Program-made: the position numbers and the translations under genes
Shown: piece by piece, positions 24,869 to 46,809 of the stretch
Layout: each line of letters begins with the position of its first letter
Position numbering within the stretch: position 1 is the first letter of the stretch
The notes under the pieces: generated by a model
Seen by the model: the letters and a program-made list of their open reading frames with translations, nothing else
Told to the model about the DNA's origin: nothing
Databases searched by the model: none
Assembly: GCA_034044135.1 (NCBI GenBank)
Contig: CP139021.1
Coordinates: 5,781,635 to 5,845,634 of the forward strand
Direction of reading: 5' to 3'
DNA: 64,000 nucleotides
Source of the DNA: Flammeovirgaceae bacterium SG7u.111
GTDB lineage: Bacteria > Bacteroidota > Bacteroidia > Cytophagales > Flammeovirgaceae

Positions 24869-25933
24869 ATGGATCTGGATCAACTGAGAGATCGAATTGA
24901 CAATATTGACACCCAGCTACTAGAGCTCCTGTCCCAACGGATGCAAGTGGTGAAAGATGTGGGCGAGCTTAAGCGGGCGCAAGGCTCAATTATCTATCGC
25001 CCAGAGCGTGAAAAAGCGATAATTGATCGTCTTTCTTCGCTCAATAAAGGATTACTTACCAGAGCTGCCATTCAAGATATCTTCTTGGAAATATTTGCAG
25101 TGAGCAGAAACCTTGAGCTTCCTGAGCGCATTGCCTATTTGGGTCCTGAAGGAAGTTTTACTCACCAAGCAGCAGAAAGCAGGTTTGGAGCAAACAGCGA
25201 ATATATTTCACTAAGAGATATAAAATCTGTTTTTGAAAATGTGGAAACAGAGCGGGTAAGGTTTGGGGTGGTACCGTTGGAAAATAACCAACAGGGAACT
25301 GTACCCGAAACCGTAGATATGCTTTGCAGCAAGGACGTCAAAATAGTGGCAGAAATTCCTATGGCTATTCACTTTACCTTTGCTACCAAAGAGGAAGATC
25401 TTTCAAAAATCACTAAAATCTACTCGAAAGATATAGCTTTCAGACAGTGCCGCAATTTTATAAATGAGTATTTTGATGCTTCAGTTTCCGAGGTAGAAGT
25501 AGCTTCTACTTCTAAGGCAGCGAGACTAGCATGCGAAAATGAAGGCAGTGCGGCTATTTGCTCTCATATAGGCGCTAAGCTCCACGGCTTGCCCGTGCTA
25601 TATGAAAACATAGAAGACAGTTCTTACAACATGACCCGTTTCTTGATTATTAGTAAGAACATCAAAAATCAGAAAGGTGACGCTGATAAGACCACGGTAG
25701 TCCTTAAAACACCGGACACACCTGGTTCGTTGGCTGTGCTTCTAGATGAATTCGAGCAAGAAGGGATCAACTTGAGCAAGTTGGAAAGCCGTCCGGCAAG
25801 AGATGGAACGACCTTCAAATATTGGTTTATCGTTGATTTTGATGGCCATTATAAGGATGAAAACATCAAAAAAATCTTCAAAAGACATAAAGAAGACCTC
25901 AAGTTCCTAGGTAGTTATGTAAAACTTTGCTAG
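24869..25933 (+). CDS. pheA: Bifunctional chorismate mutase/prephenate dehydratase (P-protein)
   Basis: A 354-residue cytoplasmic enzyme for phenylalanine synthesis (chorismate to prephenate to phenylpyruvate). A chorismate-mutase helical domain (1-85: LRDRIDNIDTQLLELLSQR) is followed by prephenate dehydratase (about 92-270: IAYLGPEGSFTHQAA, PLENNQQGTV, NMTRFLII). The C-terminal ACT domain (about 275-350, KLESRPARDGTTFKYWF) is the regulatory module where phenylalanine normally binds. All domains are present and the length is normal. The last 4 bases overlap the convergent pdeM gene. Confidence 0.95.
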   Translation: MDLDQLRDRIDNIDTQLLELLSQRMQVVKDVGELKRAQGSIIYRPEREKAIIDRLSSLNKGLLTRAAIQDIFLEIFAVSRNLELPERIAYLGPEGSFTHQAAESRFGANSEYISLRDIKSVFENVETERVRFGVVPLENNQQGTVPETVDMLCSKDVKIVAEIPMAIHFTFATKEEDLSKITKIYSKDIAFRQCRNFINEYFDASVSEVEVASTSKAARLACENEGSAAICSHIGAKLHGLPVLYENIEDSSYNMTRFLIISKNIKNQKGDADKTTVVLKTPDTPGSLAVLLDEFEQEGINLSKLESRPARDGTTFKYWFIVDFDGHYKDENIKKIFKRHKEDLKFLGSYVKLC

Positions 25934-26622
25934 CAAACTTGAAGAACTTTTCCTTCAACTATTGCAAAAATAGCATCACCGGGTTTGGCAGAAACACCTA
26001 CAAACCCGGTGAATTTTCCAAATGCAGGCATAATTCCCATTTCCTTCCCAAAATAAAAACAAGGCAACTGCAAGTGTTGTCGCCCTGCCCCTCTCAGCTT
26101 TACCGAAGGATGAATATGCCCACAAAGATTATAACACCCTTGTGGAATTTCATCTATAGAAAGTGGCTCATGGCTCAAGACCAATCTTCCTATAATATAA
26201 TAAGGTAACCCATGAGCTTTAAGCTTTTGGGGTAAGCTATCCATACTGTGCACGTCGTGGTTTCCAACTATCAATTCGAAGGAAATATCCTTCATTTCTT
26301 CAAGCCAAAGGCTTAAAATCCCCCACTCATAGTTAGCACGGCTGTGAAACATATCGCCTAACACAAGTACTTTTTCTGCACCCAAAGCTAAAATGGTTTT
26401 TTTGAGAGTTCCAAGGTCGGCTAAATGAACTGTAGGCGGAAGTGCTAAGCCCTCCTTTCTGAAATGGCCAACCTTTCCAAAGTGCAAGTCAGCAAGTAAC
26501 AACATCTTCTTGCTAGGTAAGAAGATGCATTTTTGCGGCAAGAGCCAAAGCTCTTCTCCATAAATGAAATGTTTGATATATATATGTGACATATAAAAAG
26601 AAACTCCACTGTCGATTTCCAA
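25930..26622 (-). CDS. pdeM: Ligase-associated DNA-damage-response metallophosphoesterase PdeM
   Basis: A protein of up to 230 residues with the calcineurin-type metallophosphoesterase motifs in order: LADLHFGK, VLGDMFHS, GNHD, LSHEP and GHIHPS, which together bind two metals. The pattern ADLHFGKxxHFRKEG, with no lid domain, is characteristic of PdeM, a nuclease family usually encoded with a ligase-associated helicase, exonuclease and DNA ligase. None of these partners is in the window, so this copy stands alone. A second ATG at residue 11 (26592) may be the true start, since homologous sequence begins there. Confidence 0.85.
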   Translation of the reverse strand: MEIDSGVSFYMSHIYIKHFIYGEELWLLPQKCIFLPSKKMLLLADLHFGKVGHFRKEGLALPPTVHLADLGTLKKTILALGAEKVLVLGDMFHSRANYEWGILSLWLEEMKDISFELIVGNHDVHSMDSLPQKLKAHGLPYYIIGRLVLSHEPLSIDEIPQGCYNLCGHIHPSVKLRGAGRQHLQLPCFYFGKEMGIMPAFGKFTGFVGVSAKPGDAIFAIVEGKVLQVC

Positions 26623-32591: not shown

Positions 32592-33647
32592 ATGCCAAGT
32601 TTCGAAAACCTCAGCTTCGGAGAATTAGTAGTCCATTTTGTGGGAAACAAAACCCACGAAGAATATTTGTCGCTCTCGGAGCGTGCCGTAAACCTTGCCC
32701 CTGAGGTAGAAGAATTACTCAAACATTTCTTTCTTACCCCTTTCAAAACCGAAACCTATTACCATTTCGACTTGGAGAAAGCGGAAGGACGGAATAGTGT
32801 TTTTGAGCTGGTGAAAAGGCTTTTTGATAACGAAAGTGATTTGGTGCCTATTTCTAGGGCTATTGCCGAGCTGCTTTACGAAGAATCGACCCACCCAAAA
32901 ATAAAAGGTGGTGAATTCTACGTGGTCTATTTCAAAGATTGCATAGTAGAAGACGAAATTGCCGATGCCATTGGTTTATTCAAGTCGGAGAATAAGGAAA
33001 CCTTCATCAAAGTATATGAAACGGACAATAGCTTTGACGTAAGTGGAGAAGAAGGTATAAACATCAATAAACTGGACAAAGGTTGCCTTATTTTCAATAC
33101 TGAGCAGGAGCATGGCTACAAAGTAAGCATTGTAGATAACCTCAACAAAGGAGCAGAAGCACAGTATTGGTTAGATGCATTCCTAAAAGTGAAATTGCGT
33201 GACGAAAATTTCTACCACACCCAAAACTACATGAACATGTGCCTGGAGTTTGTGGACGAAGTACTTACAGAGGAAAAAGGCGTGGACAAGCTCTCAAAAG
33301 TTGCCATCAAAAACGACTCAGCGAAGTATTTCAAAGAAAAAGAAGACTTTTCGGAAGAAGAGTTTGTGGTAGAAGTGATCCAACAACCAGAAATAATTGA
33401 AGCATTTAAAGAGTACAAAGAAGAGTACAAAGAACGACCAGAGCGAGCTGAACAGCCCGTTTTTGAAGAGTTCAATATCTCCCCCAATGCGGTAAAAAGC
33501 ACCAATAAGTTCTTCAAAAGCGTATTGAAGCTTGACAAAAACTTCCACGTCTATATTCATGGAAACAAGGAAAACGTAGAGCAAGGCTTCGACGAGGAAA
33601 AAGGAATGAAGTACTATAAACTCTTTTACAACGAGGAAAAGGAGTAG
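32592..33647 (+). CDS. 37-kDa nucleoid-associated protein (NdpA family)
   Basis: A 351-residue protein matching the bacterial nucleoid-associated protein NdpA/YejK family in pattern: an N-terminal VVHFVGNK segment, the central KGGEFYVVYFKDC strand, the LDKGCLIFNTE motif and a helical, acidic C-terminal part. Such proteins associate with the nucleoid; their molecular role is unclear. It is a single gene after a terminator. Its stop lies 5 bases before a decayed copy of the GNAT gene 3' end. Confidence 0.78.
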   Translation: MPSFENLSFGELVVHFVGNKTHEEYLSLSERAVNLAPEVEELLKHFFLTPFKTETYYHFDLEKAEGRNSVFELVKRLFDNESDLVPISRAIAELLYEESTHPKIKGGEFYVVYFKDCIVEDEIADAIGLFKSENKETFIKVYETDNSFDVSGEEGININKLDKGCLIFNTEQEHGYKVSIVDNLNKGAEAQYWLDAFLKVKLRDENFYHTQNYMNMCLEFVDEVLTEEKGVDKLSKVAIKNDSAKYFKEKEDFSEEEFVVEVIQQPEIIEAFKEYKEEYKERPERAEQPVFEEFNISPNAVKSTNKFFKSVLKLDKNFHVYIHGNKENVEQGFDEEKGMKYYKLFYNEEKE

Positions 33648-33651
33648 AATC

Positions 33652-33771
33652 CTTAATGATCCCCACCCTTATAAATTCACATTGATTGTGTTTCCCCGGC
33701 TTTTTCGAAGCCACATTTTTCATAAAATTGAATAGCACCTCCTCGGCAACTAAGATTTGCTGGTGGAGGTG
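33652..33771 (-). pseudogene. Decayed 3' fragment of the GNAT acetyltransferase gene
   Basis: This stretch aligns with 35946-36066, the 3' third of the complete GNAT gene, with about nine substitutions and one missing base. Translated, it gives GAIQFYEKCGFEKAGETQSM, then TGA where the intact gene has the Trp codon TGG, then IYKGGDH-stop. The missing base (about 33751) breaks the frame further upstream. Similarity stops abruptly at 33771. The two copies, in the same orientation, bracket the BACON lipoprotein gene. Confidence 0.88.
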
Positions 33772-33944
33772 TTTTTTGTTTATTAAAACTTAATGTAATT
33801 CACAAGAGAGATATGCAAATATTTGCAAACAGAAACCTCAAACATCGCACTGTAAAATATTTATAGCTTATTATATGCTTTTACAAAAAACACAACGTTA
33901 AAAATTTAAAGAATAATTACATATAAACAACCTTAATTTTTATC

Positions 33945-35933
33945 ATGAAAAAAATATTGACAAGTCAGCTATTATTGATGTTTCTTTCAATAATTATTTT
34001 TTCTGGCTGTGATGAGAAAGAGCCTGTAATAGAAGAAGTAGAGCCTACTTTATCTCAGATTATAATGTCCCCTGGCAAATTATACTTCAACGATACCGAT
34101 ACCAGTAAAATTAGCCTTTCTACACAACCGAGCGGCAGTGAGTTCACATGGTCTGTTAGTTCCAAACCTGAGTGGTTAGAAATAAAGACCTTAACTGGTG
34201 AGATAAACCAAGGTATCTTAGAATTAGAAGTGATATCAAACCCTGAAGGACTTGATATAGGAAAGCATGACGGTACTATTGAAATCATTACCAGTGGTGC
34301 AGGAAAAGCTCTCTCGGAAGTTCAGCTTTATATAGATGCAAAACCTCAAATAAAAATCACAGAACAACCTGTTACAATTGATGAAACGGAATCTTACAAG
34401 AGATTTACAATTTCAAATGAAGGAACTGGTTTTTTGAACTGGAAACTTGACAACACTATTCCATGGATAAGCTTTGATATAAATAATGGAACAATTGCTG
34501 AGGATAGAGCAATAAGTGTAGGAGCATATATTAATAGAGATAGTTTAACAACACCTGGCACTAAAAGCATTTATGTACCTTTAGTATCTAATGCTATTGG
34601 TGGCGATACTGCTGTATTTTTTGATATTATTGTTCCAGAAGTATCTAGACTATCGAGAGTATGGCCATCCCCATGGTATTATGATTTAGTTTTTGACTTT
34701 ACCGAACAAAAAGATACTGTACAGTTTGTAAATACTGGGAACAAGGCAGTTAACTGGGAGTTAGCAGATGTAGAAGAGTATTTAAATATAAACATTAATT
34801 CGGGCTCAATAGCAGTTGGAGATACCGTCGAGCTAGTTCTCACAATCGATCGCTCAAACCTCACCGAAAATTTGACCGCCTCCAGCTTTAAGATAAAATA
34901 TGGAGAAGAGTACGGGTTAGATATCCCTGTTAAGATATATGACTACAAGGAGTCAAAAACATTAATCGATGGTCAAATAATAGATGCTGAATATGATAGG
35001 CGCAACGATGTCGTAATTGCGGTAACCACATCGCCAAATAAGTTGTTAAAATATGACCCCTCTACCCAAACCTTTACATCCATGCCGCTGAATATGTACC
35101 CGTTCTGTGTCTCAGTCAGTAAGGATGGTAATTATGCTGTTGTAGGTCATGATGGCAGGTTTAGTTATGTTGATTTGGGCAAAATGACGACCTTGTTTAC
35201 GGAGCACATACAATTTAATATTGATGACATTATTATTTCACCTGACAACAACTGGGTCTATACATTCAAGGGATCATCAAGCTCATATAATAACTATGCC
35301 AGCTATGACTTGTCTAGGGATACAGTGATTTACGGTAGCGGATCTTATTATTGGGGAACTGCAAAATTGCATCCTACTCAAGATTATATATATACACTTG
35401 GATATTCGTACTCTTATTGGAATAAGCTAAATATTGCTGGTGGAGCTATGGTCAGAAATACCTACTACTACAATAGCAACTATTCAATAGGTAGCAATAT
35501 GTGGATCTCAGATGATGGAGAAAAGATCTTTGGTCAAAGTGGAACTATATTTACCTCCTCTACAGATCAAAATTCAGACATGAAGTATTATGGACGTTTA
35601 CAAGGGAAAGATGGGTCTTATAATGCCAATCTTATAGCTTTTGATTATAATTCGAAGAATAATATCGCAGCTGGAATCCTTGGGGACTCCTACAGTTCTA
35701 GCACGATTGCATTTTATGATGCAGAATATCTGACAAAACAGAATGAAGTAAGGCTACCTGGTTTTTTTGAAGAATCAGAAGCTAATGTAGGCAGGGGAAA
35801 AGTAGTCAACTCTTTAGGACAATTTGGTTTTTTTAATGAGGCCGGAACCCAATTCTATGTATTGTTGAGGAAAAACAATAGTAGTTCGTACTACCTAGAT
35901 GAATGGGCTATTACAACAATAGACGTAGAGTAA
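33945..35933 (+). CDS. BACON-domain lipoprotein with C-terminal propeller
   Basis: A 662-residue surface or periplasmic lipoprotein: signal peptide with lipobox FSGC (Cys22). Three BACON-like or related Ig-type repeats occur at about 45-130, 133-230 and 240-335 (for example FTWSVSSKPEWLEIKTLTG and FLNWKLDNTIPWISFDINNG). The C-terminal half (about 340-660) is a WD40/YVTN-like propeller (VSVSKDGNYAVVGHDG, IISPDNNWVYTF). BACON domains are linked to carbohydrate or mucin binding in Bacteroidota. The coding sequence looks more AT-rich than its neighbours and is bracketed by GNAT gene copies, suggesting it arrived by insertion. Confidence 0.8.
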   Translation: MKKILTSQLLLMFLSIIIFSGCDEKEPVIEEVEPTLSQIIMSPGKLYFNDTDTSKISLSTQPSGSEFTWSVSSKPEWLEIKTLTGEINQGILELEVISNPEGLDIGKHDGTIEIITSGAGKALSEVQLYIDAKPQIKITEQPVTIDETESYKRFTISNEGTGFLNWKLDNTIPWISFDINNGTIAEDRAISVGAYINRDSLTTPGTKSIYVPLVSNAIGGDTAVFFDIIVPEVSRLSRVWPSPWYYDLVFDFTEQKDTVQFVNTGNKAVNWELADVEEYLNININSGSIAVGDTVELVLTIDRSNLTENLTASSFKIKYGEEYGLDIPVKIYDYKESKTLIDGQIIDAEYDRRNDVVIAVTTSPNKLLKYDPSTQTFTSMPLNMYPFCVSVSKDGNYAVVGHDGRFSYVDLGKMTTLFTEHIQFNIDDIIISPDNNWVYTFKGSSSSYNNYASYDLSRDTVIYGSGSYYWGTAKLHPTQDYIYTLGYSYSYWNKLNIAGGAMVRNTYYYNSNYSIGSNMWISDDGEKIFGQSGTIFTSSTDQNSDMKYYGRLQGKDGSYNANLIAFDYNSKNNIAAGILGDSYSSSTIAFYDAEYLTKQNEVRLPGFFEESEANVGRGKVVNSLGQFGFFNEAGTQFYVLLRKNNSSSYYLDEWAITTIDVE

Positions 35934-35946
35934 GAAAAGGCGGGGC

Positions 35947-36351
35947 TTAATGATCCCCACCCTTGTAAATCCACATGGACTGGGTTTCCCCAGCTTTTTC
36001 AAACCCACATTTTTCATAAAATTGAATGGCACCTCCATCGGCAACTAAGATTTGCTGGTGGAGGTGTCCGTATTTTTGGGCAAACTTTTTCATAATCATC
36101 TTGCCAACACCTTTCCCATGGTACTCGGGAAGCACCAACAAATGTGGGTAATATACTACCAAATATCCATTGGAAAGCGCATTTCCAATTCCCACAAGTT
36201 TTCCAGCATCCCTAGCGGTCACCAAGTAATCGGAATTTAGCAAAGCTTTATAAAGTTCGTCGGGCTTCTTGGCCGACGACCATTTATTTGCTTCGTATAA
36301 GGCTACTATTTCTTCTTGGCTCACTTCTCTAGCATCACTTATCTTTATCAT
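35947..36351 (-). CDS. GNAT-family N-acetyltransferase
   Basis: A 134-residue cytoplasmic acetyltransferase of the single-domain GNAT fold. The acetyl-CoA loop is LPEYHGKGVGKMIM (about 73-86), preceded by the VVYYPHLLVL strand and followed by GGAIQFYEKCGFEKAGETQSM, the typical C-terminal motif B. The acceptor is unknown. The 3' third is duplicated as a decayed copy at 33652-33771. Confidence 0.87.
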   Translation of the reverse strand: MIKISDAREVSQEEIVALYEANKWSSAKKPDELYKALLNSDYLVTARDAGKLVGIGNALSNGYLVVYYPHLLVLPEYHGKGVGKMIMKKFAQKYGHLHQQILVADGGAIQFYEKCGFEKAGETQSMWIYKGGDH

Positions 36352-40844: not shown

Positions 40845-41891
40845 TTATTCTACAAACACCTTTCTACTTGGTTGGCGAAATACCATATCGAGGTTCATAA
40901 ATAATATCTCGCCCATATTTTTACATTGCATAAAGCTTTTTTCTCCATAAAATTCACTGAGCTCAGCACGTAGCTGGCGAATATTTTCTTGTGTAGAAAG
41001 GGTATCTTTTGCCATTGTACTTAGCAGAGCATTTAGCTCCTGTTGGGCACTTTTTATCCTTGTCGCTATTCTCGAGCGCTCTTCTTTCTCGTATTGAGCT
41101 TGGAGCTGGGGAGTCATATACTTAAGCCCTAGCTGGATAATAGGGTTGTTTTCCTTAAAATACTGCGGCATATAAATCGCCCGCCTGCCCTCATAGCAAT
41201 GCTGGTCAAAGTCTATGGCCCGCAACCTAAAATACACCTCATCAAAATCGGGGATAATCTCTACCACATAGTTGTCGGAGCGCATATCGCCCAAAAGCTG
41301 CACCAAGCAACGCTCGTTGAACTTCACAAACTCTTTTGCCAAACGGTGTTCTTGAACCCCTCCTGCATTGAGGTGGTCTTGGATAAATTTATCGCCAGGA
41401 ATACCAGCTATATGCTCTTCTATAAGCGTATTCCCAGTTACCAAATAGTTGATTTTATTGGGTGAGAGCAAATGTTCTATTTCCTGACCGTAAATCCGCG
41501 AAGCATCAGCTTCTTTCACATAAAAATAATCAAAAAGGTCATTGATTTTGTTCACTATCCTGATGCGGAAAGGTTTCGTATTTCCGTGGAGGCAAATATC
41601 AATTCTATCGATATAAAGATGTTCAAAAACAGAGGTATCCCCGCTCGACTTTAAGTGGGCATAAACAAGTTTCAATCCCTGGTGAATCTGCTCTCTGTCC
41701 GAATCCGAATAAAACAATGTTTCCCAAAGTGTATCTTCGCCTCGGCTGTCTTGCAGCGCTACAGACCCAGAATAATGGAATAAGTCCGTGTAGGCAAATG
41801 GGACAGAAATTTCCCGGTTAGACTCTATCAAATAGCTCCTTAGGTAAGGACTTATTTCAAAGGCTGGTTTTTTGGTTGTGATTACTGCCAT
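40845..41891 (-). CDS. Conserved-type hypothetical protein with kinase-like motifs
   Basis: A 348-residue cytoplasmic protein without signal peptide or membrane segment. I did not recognise a named family. The order of motifs suggests a phosphotransferase fold: FYVKEADASRIYGQEIEHLL (Lys126 and Glu137 could be the beta3-Lys/alphaC-Glu pair), EEHIAGIPG as hinge, GDMRSDN (201-207; Asp202, Asn207) as catalytic loop and IDFDQ (226-230) as the metal-binding aspartate segment. This is how APH/HipA-like kinases are laid out. A C-terminal helical region (about 262-315) is coiled-coil-like. Kinase activity is inference only. It is convergent with the MarR gene. Confidence 0.55.
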   Translation of the reverse strand: MAVITTKKPAFEISPYLRSYLIESNREISVPFAYTDLFHYSGSVALQDSRGEDTLWETLFYSDSDREQIHQGLKLVYAHLKSSGDTSVFEHLYIDRIDICLHGNTKPFRIRIVNKINDLFDYFYVKEADASRIYGQEIEHLLSPNKINYLVTGNTLIEEHIAGIPGDKFIQDHLNAGGVQEHRLAKEFVKFNERCLVQLLGDMRSDNYVVEIIPDFDEVYFRLRAIDFDQHCYEGRRAIYMPQYFKENNPIIQLGLKYMTPQLQAQYEKEERSRIATRIKSAQQELNALLSTMAKDTLSTQENIRQLRAELSEFYGEKSFMQCKNMGEILFMNLDMVFRQPSRKVFVE

Positions 41892-46553: not shown

Positions 46554-46612
46554 CTTTAGATAGTTACTTTCCCCTATCAAAACTTGCAATCTACTTTTGT
46601 TTGGGCTTACTT

Positions 46613-46775
46613 AGAAGCTGTTTTGAAACTAAATTTAAAAATGGTTATAGCTTATTTTGGATGCAGAATGAGGAAAAATCGACAAAGATAGTGGATCTAT
46701 CTGCGGAGATTTTAACAAAATTATGCACCGAAAGAAGCTATAATAAATTTGAAGTTATGTTTCCAAACAGCTTCT
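46613..46775. repeat. MITE-like element with AGAAGCTGTTT ends, about 163 bp
   Basis: AGAAGCTGTTTTGAAAC at the left and GTTTCCAAACAGCTTCT at the right are near-perfect 17-bp inverted repeats. The interior shows no convincing gene. The right end lies 34 bases before the sulfatase ATG, so it may carry that gene's promoter region. Related ends occur at 11879-11915 and 14921-14940. Confidence 0.55.
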
Positions 46776-46809
46776 TAGATCAAGTATTTTTTATCACAAA
46801 AGACCCAAC

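Follow-up and report, generated by a model that had tools for sequence, protein, structure and literature searches.

The locus considered here raises two questions: how a gene encoding a BACON-domain protein came to stand between two copies of the end of a GNAT acetyltransferase gene, and how those two copies came to differ. We examined it within a 64-kb stretch of DNA, called the window throughout, which covers positions 5781635 to 5845634 of contig C1 in a genome of 7.72 Mb and two contigs. Positions are those of the window unless C1 is named.

The BACON gene is bracketed by a repeated GNAT gene end

The genes of the locus are arranged in the order DEAD-box helicase, ndpA-like gene (NA37 family), displaced copy of the GNAT 3′ end, BACON gene, intact GNAT gene and amidohydrolase, and the BACON gene is the sole ORF of at least 100 aa called between the two GNAT ends (Table 1). 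In the profile search, the match of the BACON protein to PF19190 spans two stretches and lies above the curated cut-off; the start of the protein, read by eye, is lipobox-like.

Table 1. Features of the GNAT/BACON locus, in window coordinates.
Feature	Position	Strand	Evidence
ndpA-like gene (NA37 family), left flank	32592..33647	+	PF04245, 129.7 bits (cut-off 24.6)
Orphan copy of the GNAT 3′ end (left copy)	33652..33772, probably on to 33778 past a 5-nt deletion	−	Alignment
Candidate ndpA terminator, hairpin with immediate TTTTTT	33734..33777	+	Fold of 33730-33782, −23.3 kcal/mol, z −5.3
BACON-domain lipoprotein-like gene, 662 aa	33945..35933	+	ORF; PF19190 BACON_2, 53.5 bits (cut-off 25)
Matching 3′ end within the intact GNAT gene (right copy)	35946..36067	−	Alignment
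Intact GNAT acetyltransferase gene, 134 aa	35947..36351	−	PF13673, 51.8 bits (cut-off 23.6)
Candidate BACON terminator, hairpin antisense to the GNAT coding end	36026..36071	+	−30.7 kcal/mol, z −6.8

A preliminary description of this DNA had reported a copy of the GNAT 3′ end of about 120 bases, with about nine substitutions, a one-base deletion and a premature TGA, and the alignment confirms each of these points. The left copy (121 nt) has the same orientation as the GNAT gene and differs from the right copy (122 nt) by nine substitutions and by a 1-nt deletion on the left (91.8% identity, E = 4.5e-43). One of the substitutions converts codon 127 (W127) from TGG in the intact gene to TGA. The TGA is the derived state, because 24 of the 25 relatives compared visibly have TGG at this codon; for the remaining one (L159) the tail compared begins past codon 127. 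The homology ends 1 nt past the stop codon, and at the inner edge it probably runs 6 nt further, to 33778, following a 5-nt loss in the left copy (P about 0.005). The inner 30 nt of the two copies are identical (P = 0.058).

The repeat is the only direct repeat of at least 45 nt listed within the window, and the 7.7-Mb genome has no third comparable site, the next-best match being 22 nt long (E = 0.012). The GNAT end is thus found at two places in its own genome and forms a local bracket, and we reject the idea, raised at the outset as a challenge to such a bracket, that it is a dispersed repeat. We also considered whether the stretch upstream of the BACON gene (33760-33960) had been copied from elsewhere; it occurs at a single place in the genome.

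The two GNAT tails differ almost exclusively at silent sites

All nine substitutions between the tails fall at third codon positions; eight of them are silent, and the ninth is the change from TGG to TGA. The chance that nine random sites would all be third positions is 3.1e-5. A fairer null allows the intact copy to gain silent changes freely and the left copy to take any change. Under this null, the probability of the pattern if the left copy had been neutral since the duplication is 0.0009, 0.0024, 0.0053 and 0.0091 at a transition bias of 1, 2, 4 and 8, respectively. The silent divergence between the tails is about 0.31-0.46 per site. A divergence confined to third positions, and silent but for the stop codon, argues that both tails were still being translated when they diverged and that truncation of the left one came late. 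Judged from these codon positions, nearly all of the divergence would have arisen under protein-level selection on both tails, before the left truncation.

The preliminary description had held that the event that brought in the BACON gene duplicated the GNAT end and that the left copy then decayed. The codon positions do not bear this out, and they disfavour a copy that was dead from birth. The reading of the BACON gene as a bracketed newcomer stands, and it is the account of how the copies came to differ that has to be replaced. The pattern by itself does not choose the replacement: it is equally expected if the second end belonged to an imported allele, if it belonged to a tandem paralogue, or if the allele of the intact gene was replaced later. 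What the silent-site test can do, in a single genome and without a sister strain, is to tell a tail that was copied and then decayed from one of two working versions that was truncated.

The BACON gene appears to have been gained in this lineage

No match to the BACON protein was found at E 1e-10 in 17 other genomes of the family. At E 1e-20, a sample of the order (389 other genomes) yielded four genomes with a match and a sample of the phylum (394 others) two. These matches lie within residues 248-660, that is, only in the part after about residue 250, at 24-34% identity. The relatives in the order are 356-459 aa long and begin like lipoproteins; two of the genes (in L131 and L133) sit between genes that we take to be mnmA and rlmB. 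The GC content of the BACON gene (0.366) and its GC3 (0.319) rank at the 6.4th and 6.8th percentile, respectively, among 251 sampled ORFs, in agreement with the initial impression that the gene is AT-rich, but its deviation in codon usage is unremarkable (72nd percentile among 101 long ORFs). With no match in the 17 family genomes and few in the order, the gene looks as if it was gained in this lineage, which supports the earlier view that it entered the locus as a newcomer. A phage or plasmid origin received no support, as tblastn searches of 50,697 phage records and 72,556 plasmid records gave nothing at E 1e-5. The single-sequence structure model of the protein (mean pLDDT 32.2) was unusable, and a profile comparison with solved structures gave six weak, partial matches (E 1.7e-6 to 0.43, the best to Hydin), which we do not use as evidence.

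The GNAT gene itself is patchy: of 96 other genomes sampled as relatives, 17 have a match, and none of these 17 has a second match at E 1e-10. Similar genes occur as far away as in MAGs of Leptolyngbya (56%) and Verrucomicrobiaceae (61%). Because of this patchy presence and these similar genes in distant records, the GNAT gene may move between lineages.

We compared gene order in 40 regions of other genomes, several of which end at contig ends: 15 from 20 ndpA matches, 16 from 17 GNAT matches in relatives, and nine from named genomes, the latter being the best 9 of 80 GNAT-like loci kept, by E-value (50-70% identity). None of the 40 regions (15 ndpA, 25 GNAT) holds both ndpA and GNAT. Ancestral adjacency of the two genes, from which the preliminary description had started, is therefore an assumption. 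Neither an empty site, with ndpA beside GNAT and no BACON gene, nor a donor was seen in the 40 regions, and alternative cassettes between ndpA and GNAT were not seen in them either, since none holds both neighbours. The 25 GNAT regions contain no convincing second copy of the GNAT end, only short weak matches. Conservation of the same arrangement in relatives, which would have spoken against an insertion, thus has no support in the family genomes or in the 40 regions. In two relatives of one genus (L175 and L176), ndpA adjoins a homologue (56% identity) of the gene at 40845-41891 of the window; in the window, this gene lies about 7 kb from ndpA.

The opposite strand of the GNAT end folds into a strong hairpin

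The inner part of the repeat folds into a strong hairpin in RNA of the plus strand, from which both ndpA and BACON are read (Table 1). Among 6000 random antisense coding 58-mers from the genome sample described below, two reach the energy of the intact copy (−30.7 kcal/mol) and eight that of the remnant (−23.3 kcal/mol), and the GNAT-end hairpin ranks first among 188 convergent pairs. No comparable hairpin is present in the aligned segments of the 25 relatives, where the lowest z is −2.97 (L028). In the left copy, TTTTTT at 33772-33777 follows the stem directly; five bases lie between stem and T-run in the intact copy. A simple consensus terminator scan, which found seven sites versus 2.9 expected, listed the right hairpin (36028-36068) and not the left.

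Hairpins of −23 kcal/mol or stronger occur in 7 of 150 tightly convergent tails (gap below 60 nt) versus 5 of 726 codirectional tails, an excess with P = 0.0014 (0.0049 without the GNAT locus). Loosely convergent tails have hairpins of this strength in 7 of 240 cases and show no clear rank difference (P = 0.09). Strong hairpins at other tightly convergent ends are accompanied by T-runs at L150, L154 and window position 25930, and lack them at L222, L143 and L231. At the first three (window 25930-26622, L150 and L154), the antisense hairpin and T-run lie inside the opposite gene and are perhaps embedded terminators.

Intrinsic terminators of convergent genes have been described as a hairpin followed by a T-run in the tail-to-tail region (PMC1852404). 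The left GNAT copy has both elements in such a region. Unlike the terminators of that account, the hairpin here is embedded where the gene on the other strand still codes, at its end, and its displaced copy may serve another gene. Judged by fold and position, the opposite strand of the GNAT remnant may end ndpA transcription, and the right-hand hairpin is a candidate terminator of the BACON gene.

A second locus has the same layout

The sample of the organism's own genome comprised 81 stretches, including the window, with 1.664 Mb and 1190 ORFs of at least 100 aa. Two scans for same-orientation copies outside ORFs gave 7 and 2 rows for gene tails, 5 and 0 for heads, and 1 and 0 for middles. 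After transposases (L145 and L218) and apparent tandem paralogues (L146 and L232) had been set aside, displaced tails of ordinary genes remained at three places: the window, L142 and L195. At L202 and L226, single genes are flanked by what look like non-coding repeats, and at L194 a short repeat overlaps the start of an ORF; we did not count these as displaced tails. The count also excludes L209 (three head rows and one middle row), the L203 and L204 repeats and a 94-nt repeat in L218.

A gene lies between the copies only in the window, our starting point, and in L142 (13178-17418; C1 about 2703178-2707418). There, a nitrilase-GNAT fusion gene and a glycoside hydrolase family 16 gene are followed by a copy of the end of the fusion gene, 77% identical to it and found at two genome places only. 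The 29 substitutions are distributed 5/6/18 over the codon positions, and 18 are silent and 11 are not (P = 0.0014 for the third-position excess). No comparable hairpin is formed at the inner edge (−12.9 kcal/mol at best). As read from the alignment, the layout and the coding type of divergence recur at L142, but the hairpin does not. At L195 (9603-11340; C1 about 939603-941340), a copy of the tail of a thioredoxin-like gene immediately precedes the complete gene on its upstream side, and no gene separates the two. It carries 13- and 11-nt deletions and mixed substitutions, six of nine at third positions and four silent.

Three repeats of other kinds were encountered. A YhcG/DUF1016 nuclease gene (L226, 7519-9345) and a SUKH-like gene that scores below the curated cut-off (L202, 18577-19829) are each flanked by palindrome-bearing direct repeats of about 200-290 nt. 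A 169-nt element in the window (46610-46778) has 51-nt inverted ends that are 78% complementary. It has 11 near full-length genome places including its own, the others being 74-87% identical, and 37 matching pieces, and it looks like a member of a small, MITE-like family of non-coding transposable elements.

Discussion

We tentatively propose, with a confidence just short of even, that 33652-33778 is the tail of a second, once functional version of the GNAT gene, that the BACON gene came with a diverged GNAT end, and that the displaced tail may now serve as the ndpA terminator. The incoming DNA would have contained the BACON gene and, adjoining it, a GNAT end of its own in which silent sites had already diverged. 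It would have joined the resident GNAT gene through one homologous and one illegitimate junction, or through a single crossover of a circularised piece, so that the BACON gene was placed between an intact GNAT gene and the orphaned old tail. Only after this would the orphan tail have gained its stop codon and small deletions. We infer that ndpA formerly terminated inside its convergent neighbour; the orphan tail has probably been retained for the hairpin and T-run on its opposite strand, which would end ndpA transcription, and the right hairpin would serve the BACON gene likewise. Several points count against this proposal: no empty site or donor turned up in the 40 regions, the silent-site pattern suits a tandem paralogue or a later allele replacement equally well, the codon usage of the BACON gene is ordinary, the inner edge of L142 lacks a comparable hairpin, and the scan did not list the left hairpin. 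A ComEC-family gene is present in the genome; it says little about competence, because 10 of 14 control genomes also have one.

Recombination routes that could produce such a locus have been described. Minimal mobile elements have no mobility gene and are exchanged through recombination in the conserved genes on either side. Exchange of gene cassettes between genomes is described for Neisseria (PMC2649163); unlike there, alternative cassettes at the BACON site were not seen in the regions that we examined. Foreign DNA can also be inserted through a homologous junction on one side and an illegitimate one on the other, in most cases with a deletion; in an E. coli experiment, single crossovers made up most of the events recovered, and they left 109-950 bp of the end of the target gene in duplicate (PMC3240628). 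As in those events, foreign DNA would here be anchored at a homologous gene end, the 121-122 nt GNAT repeat. They were, however, selected in the laboratory, whereas here we see only the product, with ends already silently diverged and no empty site. Such a route has been proposed for the T6SS clusters of Vibrio cholerae, in which incoming modules push old genes downstream (PMC5361080). The GNAT tail resembles these in being old gene material pushed to the far side as an orphan; it differs in that intact immunity genes are kept there under selection, and what is kept here is a non-coding tail, possibly a terminator. The locus appears to fit the routes of PMC3240628 and PMC5361080 best, because under both the ends can be different from the outset. 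In one account, direct repeats flank 10-18% of variable segments (PMC2884548).

An alternative to import, which we consider unlikely though by no means negligible, is that the locus once had two full-length GNAT genes in tandem, paralogues that diverged silently, the 5′ part of the left one being lost when the BACON gene arrived or by a later deletion. It explains the silent-only divergence without import of a GNAT allele, and the genome sample does contain local paralogues and, at L195, a displaced tail without an intervening gene. But none of the 17 other GNAT-bearing genomes has a second GNAT match at E 1e-10, and the BACON gene needs a separate event.

The insertion step of the preliminary description is retained if the GNAT end was duplicated at insertion, as a long target duplication, and the intact GNAT gene was afterwards replaced, through ordinary recombination, by a diverged allele from another strain. 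Insertion with a long target duplication is described for Helicobacter pylori (Nobusato et al. 2000, as described in PMC1643837), and the BACON gene is likewise bracketed by a long direct repeat of the target. There, copies are identical at the start, whereas the differences here are of the protein-coding kind; the replacement would yield such silent-only differences. This history requires two events, neither of which is shown by any allele or relative among those examined, and we regard it as distinctly improbable.

Less probable still is site-specific integration at the GNAT 3′ end, by which an element brought a replacement end and displaced the old one, its integrase being later lost or acting in trans. 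Integrative elements in the ends of protein genes, such as icd, leave a restored end and a displaced end. This geometry and the silent divergence fit the locus, the homology stops 1 nt beyond the GNAT stop codon, and the identical inner 30 nt resemble a crossover core. None of the 12 PF00589 matches of the genome lies in the window, however, no ORF of at least 100 aa other than BACON was called between the copies, and the 25 relative loci have no duplicated GNAT end, so that we think it very unlikely. Simple duplication, with the left copy decaying from birth, would account for its stop codon and frameshift, but the silent-only substitutions (P 0.0009-0.0091) make it the most improbable of all.

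Returning to the proposed import of the BACON gene with a diverged GNAT end, the bracket is not a new system. It is a gene-acquisition scar of a kind already known, though its history can be read unusually well, and it amounts to one well-read case and one probable second. More speculatively, and with considerable doubt, genes might be gained in this lineage through recombination at those gene ends in which an antisense terminator is embedded; the import would bring a diverged end, the intact gene would stay whole, and the orphan tail would be kept because it still terminates the neighbouring gene. If so, displaced tails with silent-only differences would be import scars that can be read without a sister genome, and gene remnants would be reused as terminators. 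Tails that mark import and persist in this role would offer a route to recently gained genes and would explain why such remnants have not been deleted.
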